A DNA stretch of 64,000 nucleotides from Blastococcus sp. VKM Ac-2987 (GTDB lineage: Bacteria; Actinomycetota; Actinomycetes; Mycobacteriales; Geodermatophilaceae). The notes below the pieces were generated by a model. It was given only the letters and a program-made list of their open reading frames with translations, ran no database searches and was not told where the DNA came from. Below are positions 39,987-45,519 of this stretch, one piece after another. Both the position numbers and the translations under genes were made by a program. The stretch lies in the NCBI RefSeq assembly GCF_026967805.1, contig NZ_JAPVBG010000001.1, forward strand, positions 1,736,047-1,800,046, given 5' to 3'. Position 1 is the first letter of the stretch; the number at the start of each line of letters is the position of its first letter.

Positions 39987-41507
39987 TCACCGCGGCAGGA
40001 CGCCGCGGTCCAGCTGCACCGCCTCGGGGGTGTGCAGCCGGATCATGGTCCGGGCGGTGTGCCGCGGCACCCGCCGGGGCGTCGTCAGGGAGACCCCCAC
40101 CATCGCGAGGAACGCCAGCGGGACGGTCCAGGCCGCCGGCTGGGCCAGCAGGGCGCCCGGCCAGCCGGTGGGGGTCACGCCGAGCAGGGTGGCGATCACC
40201 GCCGCGCCGGCGCAGCCGCCCCCGACCAGCATCCCGGCGATCGCGCCGGCGTCGGTCAGCCGGCGCCACCAGATCCCGAGCACGAGCAGCGGGCAGAAGG
40301 TGGACGCGGCGAAGGCGAAGGCCAGCCCGACCGCCCGTGCCACGCCCACCCCCTCGGCCAGCAGGGCCAGGCCCAGCGGGACGAGGACGGCGACGACGGC
40401 ACCGGCCTGGAAGGCGCGCACCCCGCCGAGCCGGCGGCCCAGCCCGTCCTGGCTGATGACGCCGGCCACCGCGACGGTCAGCCCCGACGACGTGGACAGG
40501 AACGCCGCGAACGCCCCGGCGGTGGTCAGCGCGGACAGGAGCTCACCCAGCGTGCCGGCCAGCATCCGGGACGGCAGCTCGAGCACCACCGACTCGGTGT
40601 TGCCGCTGGCGATCAGGTCCGGCGCGTAGAGCCGGCCCAGCCCGCCGTACACCGGCGGCAGGAGGTAGAAGAGCCCCAGCAGCGCCAGCACGAACAGCGT
40701 CGTGCGGCGCGCCGCCGCCCCGTCGGGGTTGGTGTAGAAGCGCACCACGACGTGCGGGAGGCCCATCGTGCCGAAGAACGTGGCGATGATGATCGAGTAC
40801 GTGGTGTAGAGCTGGTGGTCGCCGGTCCCGGCCAGCGGCGACTCCCAGGAGTCCCCGGGCGTCGTCCCGGTCGAGGCAGGGGACACCCCGCCGTCGCCGA
40901 GCCAGATGGTGACCATGAACAGCAGCGGGAACAGCAGCGCGGTGAGCTTCAGCCAGTACTGGAACGCCTGGACGAACGTGATGCTGCGCATGCCGCCGAA
41001 CAGCACGTTGACCAGCACCACCGTCGCGACGAGCACGCCGCCCAACCACGGGCCGGTACCCGTGGTGGCGGCCAGCGCGATCCCGGCGCCCTGGAACTGC
41101 GGCATGAGGTACAGCCAGCCGATGGCGACGACGAGCAGCGCGGACAGCCGGCGCACCCCCCGGGACTCCAGCCGGCTCTCGGCGAAGTCGGGCAGGGTGT
41201 AGGCGCCGGACCGGCGCAGCGGCGCGGCCACCAGGACCAGCAGGACGAGGTAGCCCGCCGTCCAGCCGACCGGGTACCACAGCATCTCCGTGCCGAACGC
41301 CAGCACCAGGCCGGCGACGCCGAGGAAGGATGCCGCGGAGAGGTACTCCCCGCCGATGGCCGAGGCGTTCAACGCGGGCCGCACGGTCCGCGAGGCCACG
41401 AAGAAGTCGCTGGTGGTGCGGGAGAACCGCCAGCCGTAGGCGCCGACCGCCAGCGTGGCCACGACGACGGCCGTGACCGCGACGACGCTGTAGCCCGCGG
41501 TGCTCAC
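39987..41507 (-). CDS. Solute:sodium symporter family transporter (second, ActP/MctP-like)
   Basis: Membrane symporter of 506 aa with about thirteen helices. The SSS opening SDFFVASRTVRPALNASAIGGEYLSAASFLGVAG and later AFAAFLSTSSGLTVAVAGVISQD mark the family; it is clearly paralogous to the downstream ActP. Start taken at GTG 41507 (VSTAGYSVVAVTAVVV), 25 nt after the small membrane protein gene. It is the last gene of an operon with the histidine kinase, response regulator and small partner protein, so its substrate (probably a monocarboxylate such as acetate or pyruvate) is likely the signal or target of that system. Confidence 0.87.
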   Translation of the reverse strand: MSTAGYSVVAVTAVVVATLAVGAYGWRFSRTTSDFFVASRTVRPALNASAIGGEYLSAASFLGVAGLVLAFGTEMLWYPVGWTAGYLVLLVLVAAPLRRSGAYTLPDFAESRLESRGVRRLSALLVVAIGWLYLMPQFQGAGIALAATTGTGPWLGGVLVATVVLVNVLFGGMRSITFVQAFQYWLKLTALLFPLLFMVTIWLGDGGVSPASTGTTPGDSWESPLAGTGDHQLYTTYSIIIATFFGTMGLPHVVVRFYTNPDGAAARRTTLFVLALLGLFYLLPPVYGGLGRLYAPDLIASGNTESVVLELPSRMLAGTLGELLSALTTAGAFAAFLSTSSGLTVAVAGVISQDGLGRRLGGVRAFQAGAVVAVLVPLGLALLAEGVGVARAVGLAFAFAASTFCPLLVLGIWWRRLTDAGAIAGMLVGGGCAGAAVIATLLGVTPTGWPGALLAQPAAWTVPLAFLAMVGVSLTTPRRVPRHTARTMIRLHTPEAVQLDRGVLPR

Positions 41508-41532
41508 GAGCGGCTGCCCGCCGGCCCGGGGA

Positions 41533-41907
41533 TCACGACCGGTCCAGGACGTCGGTGAAGGCGCGCTCGTTGCGCTCGGCGGCCCGGACGTAGAGCCAGC
41601 CGATCGCGAGCAGGAACGGGTAGACCGCGAACGCCAGGAGCAGCCACGGGAGCGGCACGGCGAGCACCTCGACGCTGGACAGCTCGGGCGCGAGCCAGAA
41701 CAGCAGGGGGATGCCGCCGACCACCACGGCGAGGGTGGCGAGGGCGAGCAGCGCCAGCCGGAGCTGGGAGCGCAGCAGCGAGGACATGTACACCTCACCC
41801 AGCGCGGTCTGCGCCTCGATCTCGCGGGCGACCGGGACCCGCTGCACGCGTGCGGCGCCGGTGCGCGGGCTGGTGACGCGCACCCGGCGGGGTGAGGGGT
41901 CCGGCAC
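41533..41907 (-). CDS. Small two-helix membrane protein, symporter partner
   Basis: Protein of 124 aa. After a basic 45-residue cytoplasmic start come two hydrophobic helices (LALLALATLAVVVGGIPLLFWLA and VPLPWLLLAFAVYPFLLAIGWLYV) and a charged tail. It holds the same position before a symporter gene as the DUF485 protein does before actP and has a similar topology, though the sequence has diverged. GTG 41907 is 3 nt after the response regulator stop, so it is part of the same operon. Probably assists the symporter. Confidence 0.75.
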   Translation of the reverse strand: MPDPSPRRVRVTSPRTGAARVQRVPVAREIEAQTALGEVYMSSLLRSQLRLALLALATLAVVVGGIPLLFWLAPELSSVEVLAVPLPWLLLAFAVYPFLLAIGWLYVRAAERNERAFTDVLDRS

Positions 41908-41910
41908 CGG

Positions 41911-42654
41911 TCAGCCCCGGCCCGGCGTGCCCGGCCGGGCGCGCCGCACCAGGAGGTCGCGCAGCTCCCGGGTGTGCCGCCGGCTCACGACCAGCTCCGT
42001 GCCGCCGACGACCACCGTGCACCGCCCGGCGTCCATCCGGACCTCCTCGACGTGCTGGAGCGCGACCAGCAGCGACCGGTGGATGCGCACGAAGCCGGCG
42101 TCCTTCCAGCTCTCCTCCAGGGTGGTCAGCGGGACGCGGACCAGGTGGCTGCCCGACGCGGTGTGCAGCCGGGCGTAGTCACCCTGCGCCTCGACGTACC
42201 GGACGCCGGAGCGCGGGACGAACCTCGTCACACCCCCCAGCTCCACGGCGATGTCGTCGTCCACCGGCACGGGTCCACCGGCCCGCGCACCGACCACGCG
42301 GCGGACCGCCTCGGCCAGGCGGTCGTCGCGGACCGGCTTGAGGACGTAGTCGACGGCGCCGAGCTCGAACGCGTCCACCGCGTGGTCGTCGTGCGCGGTG
42401 ACGAAGACGACCGGCGGCGGCGCCTTGAACCGGGAGAGCACGCGCGCCAGGTCGACCCCGCTGAGCCCGGGCATGCGGATGTCGAGGAAGACGGCGTCGA
42501 CCGTCCGCTCCTGGAGCAGCCGCAGCGCCTCCGTGGCCGAGTCGCTGGTCAGCACCGTGCCGATCCGCCCGTCCCGCTCGAGCAGCCAGCGCAGCTCCTC
42601 GAGGGCCGGCCGCTCGTCGTCCACCACCAGGACGGTCAGCCTGTCTGCGGTCAC
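41911..42654 (-). CDS. LytTR-type response regulator
   Basis: Response regulator of 247 aa. Receiver domain (about 5-125; VLVVDDERPALEEL, phosphoacceptor in VDAVFLDIRMPG, Lys in VLKPVRDD) and a LytTR DNA-binding domain (about 145-240; VRYVEAQGDYARLHTASGSHLVRVPLTTLEESW...FVRIHRSLLVAL). The start is GTG 42654: it forms a GTGA overlap with the last of three upstream mini-ORFs and has GAGGAG five nt before it. LytS/LytR pairs beside symporters recall BtsSR, which senses pyruvate. Confidence 0.9.
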   Translation of the reverse strand: MTADRLTVLVVDDERPALEELRWLLERDGRIGTVLTSDSATEALRLLQERTVDAVFLDIRMPGLSGVDLARVLSRFKAPPPVVFVTAHDDHAVDAFELGAVDYVLKPVRDDRLAEAVRRVVGARAGGPVPVDDDIAVELGGVTRFVPRSGVRYVEAQGDYARLHTASGSHLVRVPLTTLEESWKDAGFVRIHRSLLVALQHVEEVRMDAGRCTVVVGGTELVVSRRHTRELRDLLVRRARPGTPGRG

Positions 42655-42731
42655 GAGCACTCCTCGCTGGCGCTCGTCGGCGTCGTGACCGACGGTGCCG
42701 TGTCCATGCGTGACCTCGCGAGCTCGGTCAC
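42651..42731 (-). CDS. Mini-ORF 3 (26 aa), directly upstream of the LytTR regulator
   Basis: GTG start, 26 codons, TGA. Peptide begins VTELARSRMDTAPSV and ends SASEECS. Start overlaps the stop of mini-ORF 2 as GTGA, and its own stop overlaps the regulator start in the same way. The codons near its end (GAG GAG TGC TCG TGA) supply the SD sequence for the next start. Whether the peptide has a function or only relays ribosomes is unknown. Confidence 0.55.
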   Translation of the reverse strand: MTELARSRMDTAPSVTTPTSASEECS

Positions 42732-42808
42732 GAGCACTCCTCGCTGGCGCTCGTCGGCGTCGTGACCGACGGTGCCGTGTCCATGCGTGACCTCGCGAGC
42801 TCGGTCAC
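42728..42808 (-). CDS. Mini-ORF 2 (26 aa)
   Basis: Identical at nucleotide level to mini-ORF 3. GTG start overlapping the stop of mini-ORF 1 (GTGA), with GAGGAG five nt upstream. Middle unit of the three. Confidence 0.55.
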   Translation of the reverse strand: MTELARSRMDTAPSVTTPTSASEECS

Positions 42809-42885
42809 GAGCACTCCTCGCTGGCGCTCGTCGGCGTCGTGACCGACGGTGCTGCGCCCATGCGTGACCTCGCAAGCTCGGTCAC
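42805..42885 (-). CDS. Mini-ORF 1 (26 aa), overlapping the kinase stop
   Basis: GTG start overlapping the histidine kinase stop codon (GTGA); a GGAG in the kinase gene lies 7 nt before it. The peptide reads VTELARSRMGAAPSV and ends SASEECS, differing from the other two at residues 10 and 11 (GA for DT), so it is the more diverged unit. Confidence 0.55.
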   Translation of the reverse strand: MTELARSRMGAAPSVTTPTSASEECS

Positions 42886-44009
42886 GGGCGCACTCCGGGC
42901 GCGAACTTGGGAACCCGCACGATGACCTTCGTCCCCGCGCCAGGGCCGGTCTCGACGACCAGACCGTAATCGTCCCCGAATGCGGTGCGCAGCCGGGCGT
43001 CGACGTTGCCCAGCCCCACCGAGTCGACCGACACGTCACCGGCGAGCGCCCGCCGCACCTTCTCCGGGTCCTCGCCGATCCCGTCGTCCTCGACCGAGAT
43101 CAGGCACTCCCCGCCCTGGTCGGCGGCGATGATCGTCACCGTCCCGGTGCCCGGCTTGCGTTCCAGACCGTGCCGCACCGCGTTCTCCACCAGCGGCTGC
43201 AGGCAGAGGAACGGGACGGCGACCGGTAGGACCTCCTGCGCCACCCGGAGCGTGACCTGGAGCCGGTCACCGAACCGCGCCTTCTCCAGCACCAGGTACC
43301 GCTCGATCGACCGCAGCTCCTCGGCCAGGGTCGTGTACTCGCCGTGGTGGCTGAAGGAGTACCGGGTGAAGTCGGCGAACTCCAGCAGGAGCTCGCGCGC
43401 CCGCTCGGGGTCGGTCCGGACGAACGAGGCGATCGCGGTCAGCGAGTTGTAGATGAAGTGGGGGCTGATCTGCGCCCGCAGCGCCCGGACCTCGGCCTCC
43501 ATCAGCCGCGTCCGCGAGGCGTCGAGCTCGGCCAGTTCCAGGTTCCCCGACACCCAGCGCGCGACCTCGGTCGCGGCCCGGACGAGCCCGGCGGAGGCGG
43601 ACGGGGTGAACGCCTGGAGGGTGCCGACCACCCGGTCCTCCACCACCAGCGGGCTGATCACGACCTGCCGCAGCGCGCACGCCGCGTCCGAGCAGGCGAA
43701 GTCCCTGCGGTCCCGCACCACAGTGCCGCCCGACTCGAGGACGATGGCGGCGAGGGCGGCCGCGTCCGGCTCGTGGTGGCCGAAGCGTCCGTCCCAGGCC
43801 AGCGTCGTCACGGTGTCGGTCAGCGCGACGGCCGGAGCCCCGAGCAGGTCCCGCAGGTGCCGGATCGCGCGTCCGGCGGAGCCGCTGGTCAGGCCCTCGC
43901 GCAGCTCCGGCGCCGTGAGGGAGGCCGAGTGGAGGGTCCGGAACGTCGCCTGCTCCGCCTCCGTGCCCAGGTGGCCGGGGCGCAGCCAGCGCAGTGCTCC
44001 ATGCGTCAC
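42882..44009 (-). CDS. LytS-type sensor histidine kinase (GAF + His_kinase)
   Basis: Soluble sensor kinase of 375 aa. The N-terminal part (about 40-165) is GAF-like, with a pair of Cys in FACSDAACALRQVV that could bind metal, a cluster or a thiol signal. Then the PF06580-type phosphorylation motif LRAQISPHFIYNSLTAI and a HATPase_c domain with N-box QPLVENAVRHG and G1 VEDDGIG. GTG 44009 follows GGAGG at good spacing. It lacks the membrane helices of LytS/BtsS, so it probably senses an internal signal. First gene of the operon leading to the response regulator and symporter. Confidence 0.9.
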   Translation of the reverse strand: MTHGALRWLRPGHLGTEAEQATFRTLHSASLTAPELREGLTSGSAGRAIRHLRDLLGAPAVALTDTVTTLAWDGRFGHHEPDAAALAAIVLESGGTVVRDRRDFACSDAACALRQVVISPLVVEDRVVGTLQAFTPSASAGLVRAATEVARWVSGNLELAELDASRTRLMEAEVRALRAQISPHFIYNSLTAIASFVRTDPERARELLLEFADFTRYSFSHHGEYTTLAEELRSIERYLVLEKARFGDRLQVTLRVAQEVLPVAVPFLCLQPLVENAVRHGLERKPGTGTVTIIAADQGGECLISVEDDGIGEDPEKVRRALAGDVSVDSVGLGNVDARLRTAFGDDYGLVVETGPGAGTKVIVRVPKFAPGVRP

Positions 44010-44205
44010 GGTGTCTCCCTCCAGCCGGCCCCGCCGGCCGTCGGACGGTGGGCCAGCGAACCGTAGATCCTGACGGCCCGCGCACGTGAGCGACCCGGCG
44101 TCGCTGCAGGGTCTCGCCGGTACGGCGATGTCGGTCGGGCCGGGACGTAGCCGGATCGCTGCACCGCCGTAACGCCGTCCGAACAGGGCCCGGGTGCAAT
44201 GGCTC

Positions 44206-45519
44206 ATGGTCGCGATCAGTGCTGCGTCGTCGGGATGGTTCGCGGTGGCCCGCACCGCCGAGGTCGGCACCACGCCGGTGCCGGTCGGGGCCGGCGGGCG
44301 CGGCTACGTCGTCGTCCGCCTGTCACCCGGGGGCGAGGTGAGCGCGTTCCCCGCCCGCTGCCCGCACCGGGCGGTCCCGCTGGCCGCGGCCACGGTCACC
44401 GGCGGGCGGCTGGAGTGCCCCCGTCACGGGTGGCGGTTCGACGCCGACGGCCGCTGCGTCGCCGCTCCGTCCCTGGGCCCGGCCGGCGTCCCGCCGCCGC
44501 GGGCGGACCTGCCCGTGCCCTGGGCCGTGGAGGAGCGGCACGGCTGGGTGTGGCTCGCACCCGACCGGACGACGGCGGCGGTCCCGGCGCGGTCCGCCGG
44601 GCTCCCGCGGCCCGAGGCGGTGCCCCCGCCCCAGGGCCCGCGCGGGCCGGTGTTCGGCAACCTCGACCCGTCGCTGCCCGCCGCCTGGCACCCGGTGGCA
44701 CTGTCGGCCGAGCTGCGGCCGGGAGGGTGGCTGCAGGTCCGCCTGCTGGGCCGCACCTGGACGCTGCGGCGGGACGACGCCGGGCTGCGGGTGGAGCCGC
44801 CGGCGTTCGCCGCCCGCGAGCGGCAGGGCGTGATCGAGCTGGCCCCGGAGGAGCCGGCCGACGTCCCCCTCGACGTGCCGGAGGCGACCGACCGGCGGTT
44901 CCTCTCCCGCTGGCTGGCGCCCCGGCGCACCGCCGCACCCGCGGCCGTCGTCGCCGACCTGCTCCTGGACGTCGCCCGGCTCCCCTTCGTGCACGCGGCG
45001 ACGACCGGGGCGGCGGACCACCCGGAGGTGCCGCCGTACGAGGTCGTCCGGGATCCCGGGGGCTTCACCAGCGTGCAGGAGCAGTGGTGCGACGACCCGC
45101 TGGACCCCGAGGTGGCCCTGGGCGGGCGGCCGCTGCGGCAGCGCCGGCGGGTCACCTACGCCTACCGGGCGCCGTTCCGGCTGCGGATGCGCCGCGACCA
45201 GCTCGACTCCGGGTCGACGACGACGGTCCTCACGCTGCTGCAGCCCGAGGACGCCGACTCCACGCGCGTGCTGACCCGGGTCCTGCTGTCGGCGGGGCCG
45301 GGGCACCCGCTGCCCTCCCGCGGGCAGCTCGCCGGCGCCGTCGCCGCCGAGCAGCAGGCGCTGGACGCCGACCTGGCGCAGCTGGCCGGCACCGGCCTCG
45401 CCGGTCTGCCGCTGGACCGCCGGGACGAGCTGCACCTGCCCGCCGACCGGCTGGGCCTCGCTGTGCGCGACGCCCTCTGCGACTTCCGGATGGCAGGACG
45501 GCCGCGGCTGGCCGCCTGA
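44206..45519 (+). CDS. Rieske [2Fe-2S] protein of the ring-hydroxylating oxygenase type, mononuclear iron site altered
   Basis: Protein of about 437 aa. The N-terminal Rieske domain is intact: C-P-H-R-A-V-P-L and C-P-R-H-G-W-R-F give the two Cys and two His ligands. The C-terminal part resembles VanA-like catalytic domains, but the iron motif, normally D-x-x-H-x-x-x-x-H, reads D-V-A-R-L-P-F-V-H (bases 44968-44994): the first His is Arg. The protein may therefore not be an oxygenase in the usual sense. Start taken at ATG 44206; GTG 44194 is also possible. Convergent with a zinc-ribbon gene 4 bp away, divergent from the kinase. Confidence 0.8.
   Translation: MVAISAASSGWFAVARTAEVGTTPVPVGAGGRGYVVVRLSPGGEVSAFPARCPHRAVPLAAATVTGGRLECPRHGWRFDADGRCVAAPSLGPAGVPPPRADLPVPWAVEERHGWVWLAPDRTTAAVPARSAGLPRPEAVPPPQGPRGPVFGNLDPSLPAAWHPVALSAELRPGGWLQVRLLGRTWTLRRDDAGLRVEPPAFAARERQGVIELAPEEPADVPLDVPEATDRRFLSRWLAPRRTAAPAAVVADLLLDVARLPFVHAATTGAADHPEVPPYEVVRDPGGFTSVQEQWCDDPLDPEVALGGRPLRQRRRVTYAYRAPFRLRMRRDQLDSGSTTTVLTLLQPEDADSTRVLTRVLLSAGPGHPLPSRGQLAGAVAAEQQALDADLAQLAGTGLAGLPLDRRDELHLPADRLGLAVRDALCDFRMAGRPRLAA

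Follow-up and report, generated by a model that had tools for sequence, protein, structure and literature searches.

What fills the gap between a sensor histidine kinase gene and the response regulator gene behind it in Blastococcus sp. VKM Ac-2987, and how could the regulator stay translationally coupled across it? In the window, by which we mean the whole 64,000-nucleotide stretch of contig NZ_JAPVBG010000001.1 that was analysed, the junction holds three tandem 77-bp units read on the minus strand. Judging from sequence comparisons, we consider it very probable (roughly 85%) that this array consists of three copies of one small mobile repeat, non-autonomous and of the MIRU type, which would have inserted at the TGA of a start codon, kept the coupling, been duplicated in place, and apparently been fitted to its target by complementarity. 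The term MIRU-type refers to the design of the element and implies no base-level homology with the M. tuberculosis unit.

Anatomy of the junction

On the minus strand, the kinase gene (42882..44273; His_kinase PF06580 and HATPase_c) is followed by unit 1 (42809..42885), unit 2 (42732..42808), unit 3 (42655..42731), and the regulator gene (41911..42654), which encodes receiver (Response_reg) and LytTR domains. Units 2 and 3 are identical and unit 1 differs from them at 4 of 77 positions (identity 0.95), exactly as the initial annotation had it. TRF reports a single array, with period 77, 3.1 copies, 97% matches, and a score of 450 against at most 77 in its other 15 rows for the window. Each unit contributes a mini-ORF of 26 codons plus TGA with the translation V T E L A R S R M ... 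S A S E E C S *. Mini-ORF 1 (42805..42885) is present in the ORF list, mini-ORF 2 (42728..42808) was read from the sequence, and mini-ORF 3 (42651..42731) has the same letters as mini-ORF 2. Because the kinase ORF ends at 42882 and mini-ORF 1 spans 42885-42805, the TGA stop of the kinase and the start of mini-ORF 1 overlap as GTGA. In every unit, GAGGAG is followed by five nucleotides and then GTG (motifs at 42814-42819, 42737-42742, and 42660..42665), the last copy supplying a Shine-Dalgarno motif from unit 3 to the regulator. The regulator start GTGA (42654-42651) comes directly after unit 3 and overlaps the stop of mini-ORF 3, so the GTGA-linked relay from kinase stop to regulator start reads as first noted. 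A GGAG within the 3' end of the kinase gene (42893..42896) now precedes mini-ORF 1 and was likely the original Shine-Dalgarno motif of the regulator. The regulator most likely starts at 42654 rather than at the in-frame GTG at 42660 given in the ORF list, since relatives without the element have a GTGA or ATGA that overlaps the kinase stop.

The next genes on the same strand encode a small protein (41533..41907) with a weak DUF4212 match (E 7.7e-05, under Pfam's curated cut-off) and a sodium:solute symporter (SSF; 39987..41798). Together with the kinase and the LytTR regulator they form a group on the minus strand (39987-44273), which suggests a nutrient-sensing system that would control its own transporter. 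The nearest named relatives of the regulator are from Blastococcus. A Blastococcus-like regulator with 92% identity also stands in SPQJ01000021.1, titled 'UNVERIFIED_ORG: Bacillus sp. AZ43', a record that is probably mislabelled. The window had no Rfam match at gathering scores.

A dispersed repeat at start codons

The 4.6 Mb genome of this strain (12 contigs) matches parts of a 301-base query at 11 further places (E 0.001 or better). The repeat is thus dispersed, which rules out a unique relay evolved for this kinase-regulator pair. A pattern search with the 5' palindrome found arms that change together (GTGACC..GGTCAC, GTGAGC..GCTCAC, GTGATC..GATCAC), and all 23 genomes searched within the genus contain matches to the window unit. 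Of 298 genomes sampled from the order, 164 were matched by a covariance model built from 24 units, at a per-genome E of 0.001 or better, the weak single matches including some by chance; since 15 candidates were scored per genome, the per-genome counts are lower bounds. Among the own-family genomes listed, 49 had a match and two had none; a further 114 genomes without a match stand outside this list. Several other families also gave strong covariance-model scores. A 6.0 Mb genome from outside the own family (G163, family f15) has 60 unit matches and several arrays of 75-80 nt units, some of which are not 2 mod 3.

The position of the element was assessed at 159 distinct sites, or 155 when sites were defined by downstream sequence with identical tandem copies left unmerged. 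These sites were picked by unit similarity, not at random, and some are orthologous; copies without TGA at both ends were dropped (24 of 279 hits had no 5' TGA, and 14 of 279 no 3' TGA). A frame of 100 codons or more begins at the last DTGA of 142/159 sites, compared with 1355/3449 control DTGA at the same loci, and an upstream frame of 60 codons or more ends at the first TGA of 132/159 sites versus 1147/3449 controls. A Shine-Dalgarno-like motif precedes the last DTGA at 154/159 sites and the first at 80/159, the control value being 14%. The downstream genes are unrelated and include nusG, a ParB-like gene, and many others, these two names being our reading of the translations. Four genomes of the genus carry the element directly ahead of nusG, a conserved core gene, and G005 has two copies there.

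Empty sites occur within the genus. At E 1e-60, 16 of the 23 genus genomes have the regulator; 15 were read in one comparison, and the sixteenth (G017), without an anchor there, was read separately. Six of the 16 kinase-regulator junctions are occupied by an element or a remnant and ten are empty, with a bare GTGA or ATGA overlap. One of the ten (G001) was scored empty because its first GTGA overlaps the kinase stop, although a second ATGA lies at distance 15. That zero copies would also keep the overlap, as originally predicted, therefore holds in 10 of the 16 genomes bearing the regulator. Of the occupied junctions, that of the window has three units, that of G005, its closest relative, has two, that of G008 has one, and those of G022, G020, and G019 hold remnants. 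The second unit of G005 is rearranged and its mini-ORF stops early, and the relay is fully intact only in G000 and G008. The three remnants (72, 57, and 78 nt) are all 0 mod 3 and open, with the old start codon back in the regulator frame. This fits selection that keeps the regulator coupled, as far as three cases can. In a tree of the regulator and its downstream flank, the window belongs to a five-genome clade with support 100/100 and G008 stands apart among genomes with empty junctions, so two gains are the simplest reading.

The ParB-like gene was read in 22 genomes, nine filled and 13 empty, the 23rd (G016) being split between contigs; at nusG, four of 23 genomes are filled and 19 empty. 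At the ParB-like site, the host GTGA is kept at the left flank of the element. Of the 9 filled genomes, 8 have ATGA at the right end, and 6 have a T after the left TGA, a position occupied by C in each of the 13 empty genomes. From this we infer that the core shared by host and element is TGA, that the base preceding TGA at the left end and the bases following TGA at the right end would belong to the host, and that the rest would be the element; later mutation is an alternative to this boundary assignment at the ParB-like site. No clear agreement between the two ends was found at bases -12 to -3, and -2 and -1 agreed weakly (z 2.6 and 3.8), which does not support an upstream target duplication beyond TGA.

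The empty sites in relatives show that one copy inserted at the TGA of the GTGA in which kinase stop and regulator start had overlapped. By this insertion the original start codon, preceded by the GGAG in the tail of the kinase gene, became that of a 26-codon mini-ORF, and the regulator received a new GAGGAG and a new start codon, in another 4-nt overlap of stop and start. As the anatomy suggests, a ribosome leaving the kinase could terminate and then reinitiate by way of the mini-ORF. The mini-ORF chain most likely keeps the downstream gene coupled. With such a relay, insertion would probably be near neutral for expression, which would explain why start codons tolerate the element.

Multiplication in place followed. 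Units of equal length are far more alike within arrays (identity 0.981, 60 pairs) than the last units of different sites (0.760, 6216 pairs), and the five-base spacer ahead of the next start agrees fully in 47 of 76 within-array pairs compared with 2.4% between sites. These array-private variants show that arrays grow by local duplication, which may proceed by unequal recombination or slippage; any copy number would keep the mini-ORF chain. One four-unit array (L282, G299:C1:1044300-1046000) has units of 77, 79, 77, and 80 nt and two alternating spacer types, a higher-order repeat of two unit kinds. Two identical units might reflect a misassembled repeat, but the array sits inside a 1.8 Mb contig, an imperfect array of more than one copy occupies this junction in a relative, and multi-unit arrays occur at 35 of 155 sites in many assemblies. 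An artefact is extremely improbable; the copy number of the window array could be off by one.

The initial annotation had pointed out that a unit of 3n-4 nt preserves the relay at any repeat number. This arithmetic mostly carries over to relatives, although one or more mini-ORFs are broken at 27 of 155 sites. In copies from outside the family, the length is 2 mod 3 in 26 of 30 (65, 71, 74, 77, or 80 nt), the others measuring 67, 67, 75, and 79 nt, and in a genus that is probably Mycobacterium, all 23 measurable copies among 28 matches are 62, 65, or 68 nt, with ends set at the nearest DTGA, a rule that favours complete copies. All mini-ORFs are intact at 128 of 155 sites; given the 27 broken ones, some sites can do without the relay. 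With each site counted once, 27 of the 50 unit lengths that differ from 77 are 2 mod 3 and 23 are not, a mild excess over one third in favour of frame preservation, with shared ancestry present. Ten single-unit sites are 0 mod 3, and nine of these are open into the downstream gene, where the shifted frame may be open by composition. A search for lengths of 3n-4 at two-component boundaries, as first proposed, would have been too narrow: the element sits at start codons generally.

It had also been suggested that the relay is a selected dosage device, in which the repeat number sets the ratio of regulator to kinase because each termination-reinitiation step loses ribosomes. The anatomy would suit such a device, as would the variation among relatives (three, about two, one, remnants, and none). 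Likewise, the repeat number at senX3-regX3 varies in the tuberculosis complex, reportedly from one to seven copies in the passages cited (PMC2453075), and the senX3-regX3 intergenic region is reported to drive senX3-independent expression of regX3 (part of PMC4213456). The same element, however, precedes many unrelated genes, so dosage tuning is not needed to explain the array. The arrays also resemble local duplication, the fully intact relay at this junction is confined to two genomes, and three others have 0 mod 3 remnants. With these points against it, selected dosage control seems unlikely to us as the explanation of the array. A promoter inside the repeat may contribute to regulator expression; we keep this possibility because promoter activity is described for the senX3-regX3 intergenic region (part of PMC4213456). 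A consensus scan of 42500-44400 found no sigma-70-type promoter or terminator, a result that carries little weight in an actinobacterium.

Conservation of the unit and its match to host bases

The peptide itself had been proposed to have a role. In its favour, codons 2-25 are without an internal stop in 112 of 112 aligned 77-nt units, and the N-terminal residues are similar in other families. Against it, in the middle region of these 112 units the mean entropy of codon positions 1, 2, and 3 is 1.18, 0.91, and 0.89 bits; the third position is not the most variable, and nothing there points to selection on a peptide. Stem pair 5-18 occurs as CG in 58 units, GC in 39, TA in 6, AT in 2, and other combinations in 7, four base-pair types whose exchange alters the residues (T/S/I/N and R/S). 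These stem changes alter amino acids, indicating that the signal lies in nucleic acid structure. The mini-ORF is moreover broken at some sites, as described above. A functional 26-residue peptide is therefore highly improbable, and this earlier suggestion is not upheld.

The stem in question is a 5' hairpin of columns 1-6 with 17-22 (GTGACC...GGTCAC; 42710..42731 in unit 3), present also in units 1 and 2 and recognized by covariation. In the 24-unit alignment, none of 500 shuffles reached the covariation score or the percentage paired of this left stem. The number of pairs changed on both sides was reached by 43/500 shuffles and that of pair types by 212/500, so the stem fails on these two counts. 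RNAalifold gave only an unsupported six-pair structure for the 24 units, and the 5' hairpin was tested as a named structure afterwards. Predicted folding of the units was no more stable than that of shuffles (z -0.52, -1.14, -0.64, 0.04, and -0.82). Pairing of D5 with column 22 was seen in 97/113 cases (reached by 0/2000 plain shuffles) and in 78/86 (39/2000); shuffles within genomes left no excess (515/2000). Pairing of D3 with column 47 was weak within genomes (35/2000).

Variable element columns of 108 units were then compared with 24 host bases on each side, the D of the last DTGA being position 1. The leading signals join host base +5 to column 37 (z 44.6), 43 (29.9), 5 (15.1), 45 (13.8), and 18 (9.9); further ones join +6 to columns 38 (18.4) and 42 (8.6), and +7 to columns 41 (14.5) and 39 (5.6). 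The distant +26 scores z 7.1 with column 23, which indicates that some of the correlation comes from relatedness. For the counts, each downstream-gene cluster was represented by a single site (86 of 112 units). Host +5 is identical with column 37 at 76/86 sites (34.9 after shuffling) and pairs with column 43 at 72/86 (40.3). For +6, column 38 is equal at 78/86 (71.0) and column 42 pairs at 78/86 (70.2); for +7, column 39 is equal at 51/86 (39.9) and column 41 pairs at 66/86 (51.6). Host +8 showed no match signal at the 86 sites. Both +5 matches survive shuffling within genomes, with 51.6 and 53.7 expected and the observed counts reached by 0/2000 shuffles. Contiguous complementarity through the right DTGA averages 5.05 bases, compared with 4.34 for shuffled hosts.

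In unit 3 of the window, the putative guide is the internal octamer at columns 41-48, CGGTCACG (42684..42691), which is complementary to CGTGACCG across the regulator start. The target (42648..42654) comprises the GTGA of the regulator and host bases +5 to +7 (CCG), which match internal bases of the element. At the 26 sites whose base after the left TGA is unlike the right-hand host base, column 37 agrees with the right host base at 19 and with the left base at 2; for column 43 these numbers are 14 and 9. Nine inner array units have differing neighbours, too small a number for a decision: column 37 agrees with the host in 6 of them and with the next unit in 3, column 43 with the host in 4 and with the next unit in 5. 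The empty genomes uniformly have C at host +5, both at nusG (19 of 19) and at the ParB-like gene (13 of 13); nine named empty loci of the kinase-regulator junction divide into 6 with C and 3 with G. Since the empty genomes at nusG and the ParB-like gene all have C, the host base predates the insertion there, which points to target choice by pairing. The octamer may thus choose or fit its target by complementarity around the start codon and host +5 to +7; the association is observed, and the causal role is our interpretation. That the element picks its target by base pairing with the octamer is a tentative proposal, which we rate as nearly an even chance. If it is true, the base at column 37 would decide where a subfamily inserts: at GTGAC starts with C, at GTGAG starts with G, and at GTGAT starts with T.

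The covariation of element and host could instead reflect an RNA hairpin, in which columns 41-50 pair with the spacer, the start codon, and host +5 to +7 and thereby mask the start codon, and a ribosome on the mini-ORF melts the stem and so enforces coupling. Columns 50-75 (z 7.9), 49-76 (z 4.3), and 52-73 (z 3.8) are complementary above shuffling, a predicted fold puts the regulator start in a stem, and RNA unfolding is described as a known coupling mechanism in the cited part of PMC12548453. Such a stem needs no column 37, however, which equals +5 at least as often as column 43 pairs with it and tracks the right host base where the flanks differ. The fold energies are not below those of shuffles, and the supposed right-stem columns 48-77 and 51-74 have no excess pairing. 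With C at +5 in all empty nusG and ParB-like genomes read, the match would need changes in the element after insertion. The hairpin is possible as an explanation, and we incline against it.

Relation to MIRU and other repeats

MIRU arrays serve in tuberculosis strain typing. The initial annotation knew of no described example of this design, but MIRU at senX3-regX3 have it, including the 77-bp tandem units. The H37Rv senX3-regX3 region holds three identical 77-bp MIRU (PMC4213456, in part), so that this locus (ETR-D / MIRU04) resembles the window in having 77-bp tandem units between a histidine kinase and a response regulator. MIRU are described at 41 locations in H37Rv with lengths of 40-100 bp (PMC2734929, in part), a size class and chromosome-wide dispersal shared by the Blastococcus unit (77 bp in the window), and a 77-nt class I MIRU lies before the parA gene of M. 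bovis (PMC4128351, in part). They are described as apparently mobile and as inserting at start codons, with an ORF that couples to the gene at -4 nt, in a passage citing Supply et al. 1997 (PMC12548453). The Blastococcus element likewise inserts at start codons, has an ORF overlapping the flanking stop and start by 4 nt, and forms tandem arrays of variable copy number at some loci. It differs in its host, which belongs to another genus and family and is not mycobacterial, and the Blastococcus array lies in a LytTR-type two-component system unlike that of senX3-regX3. Its internal bases also match host bases, unlike MIRU as described in the cited portions of these papers. The senX3-regX3 MIRU are said to exist only in M. 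leprae and the tuberculosis complex (passage in PMC4213456), and MIRU generally are said to occur in many mycobacteria (passage in PMC12548453). Among the matches listed from the open-licence literature, we found no paper on such repeats outside mycobacteria. The design is already known from MIRU; new here are the host lineage, how widely the family is spread, and its match to host bases.

REP/BIME sequences, which are associated with RAYT (Y1) transposases, are also short, palindromic, non-autonomous repeats found in tandem clusters, and the Blastococcus unit resembles them in these respects. Movement of a REP-like element by a RAYT/Y1 transposase would account for a short, palindromic, dispersed repeat with a hairpin beside a specific short target and internal bases matching that target. 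Yet the placement at start codons, with a Shine-Dalgarno motif of its own, is unlike REP/BIME, and Y1_Tnp (PF01797), the sole transposase family searched, was absent from the own genome and from 57 family genomes (0/57), the same search being positive in 5 of 14 controls. This explanation is very unlikely, and for the family of the host it is already largely refuted, although the enzyme may have been lost or may have diverged. In IS200/IS605 elements, guide sequences pair with the cleavage and target sites. If the host match reflects target choice, the Blastococcus unit would resemble them in having a short internal sequence complementary to the target at the element end; it has no transposase gene and no Y1 HUH enzyme (PF01797) was found, and it is not a member of that family. 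Generic translational coupling, with NTGA overlaps at -4 nt and short upstream ORFs (PMC12548453, in part), shares the stop-start overlap and internal Shine-Dalgarno motif, but in Blastococcus the overlap is brought by a mobile repeat and can be repeated in register.

On a broader view, start-codon-seeking mobile repeats may occur across Mycobacteriales, with MIRU as one branch, target choice by octamer pairing, and an enzyme other than Y1, a composite picture that we hold tentatively, at slightly less than even odds. How MIRU move and why they use start codons is not stated in the cited portions of the papers. A large soil-actinobacterial family with empty sites, subfamilies, and host-matching bases makes this mobility question testable outside pathogens. 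A mobile element can evidently occupy the start codons of conserved genes such as nusG, apparently without silencing them.

The published senX3 primer gave a one-mismatch match in 10 of 248 presumed-Mycobacterium genomes, and the 8 loci read are unlike the kinase. In the probable Mycobacterium genus, 12 of 41 genomes have matches to a related 65-nt repeat at start codons. A threonine synthase fragment from that genus has its best match, over nearly its whole length, in the solved chain 2d1f, which we take to be from M. tuberculosis. The 65-nt relative may be a MIRU branch. It often has an internal TGCGG, which could pair with the spacer CCGCATGA before the next start.
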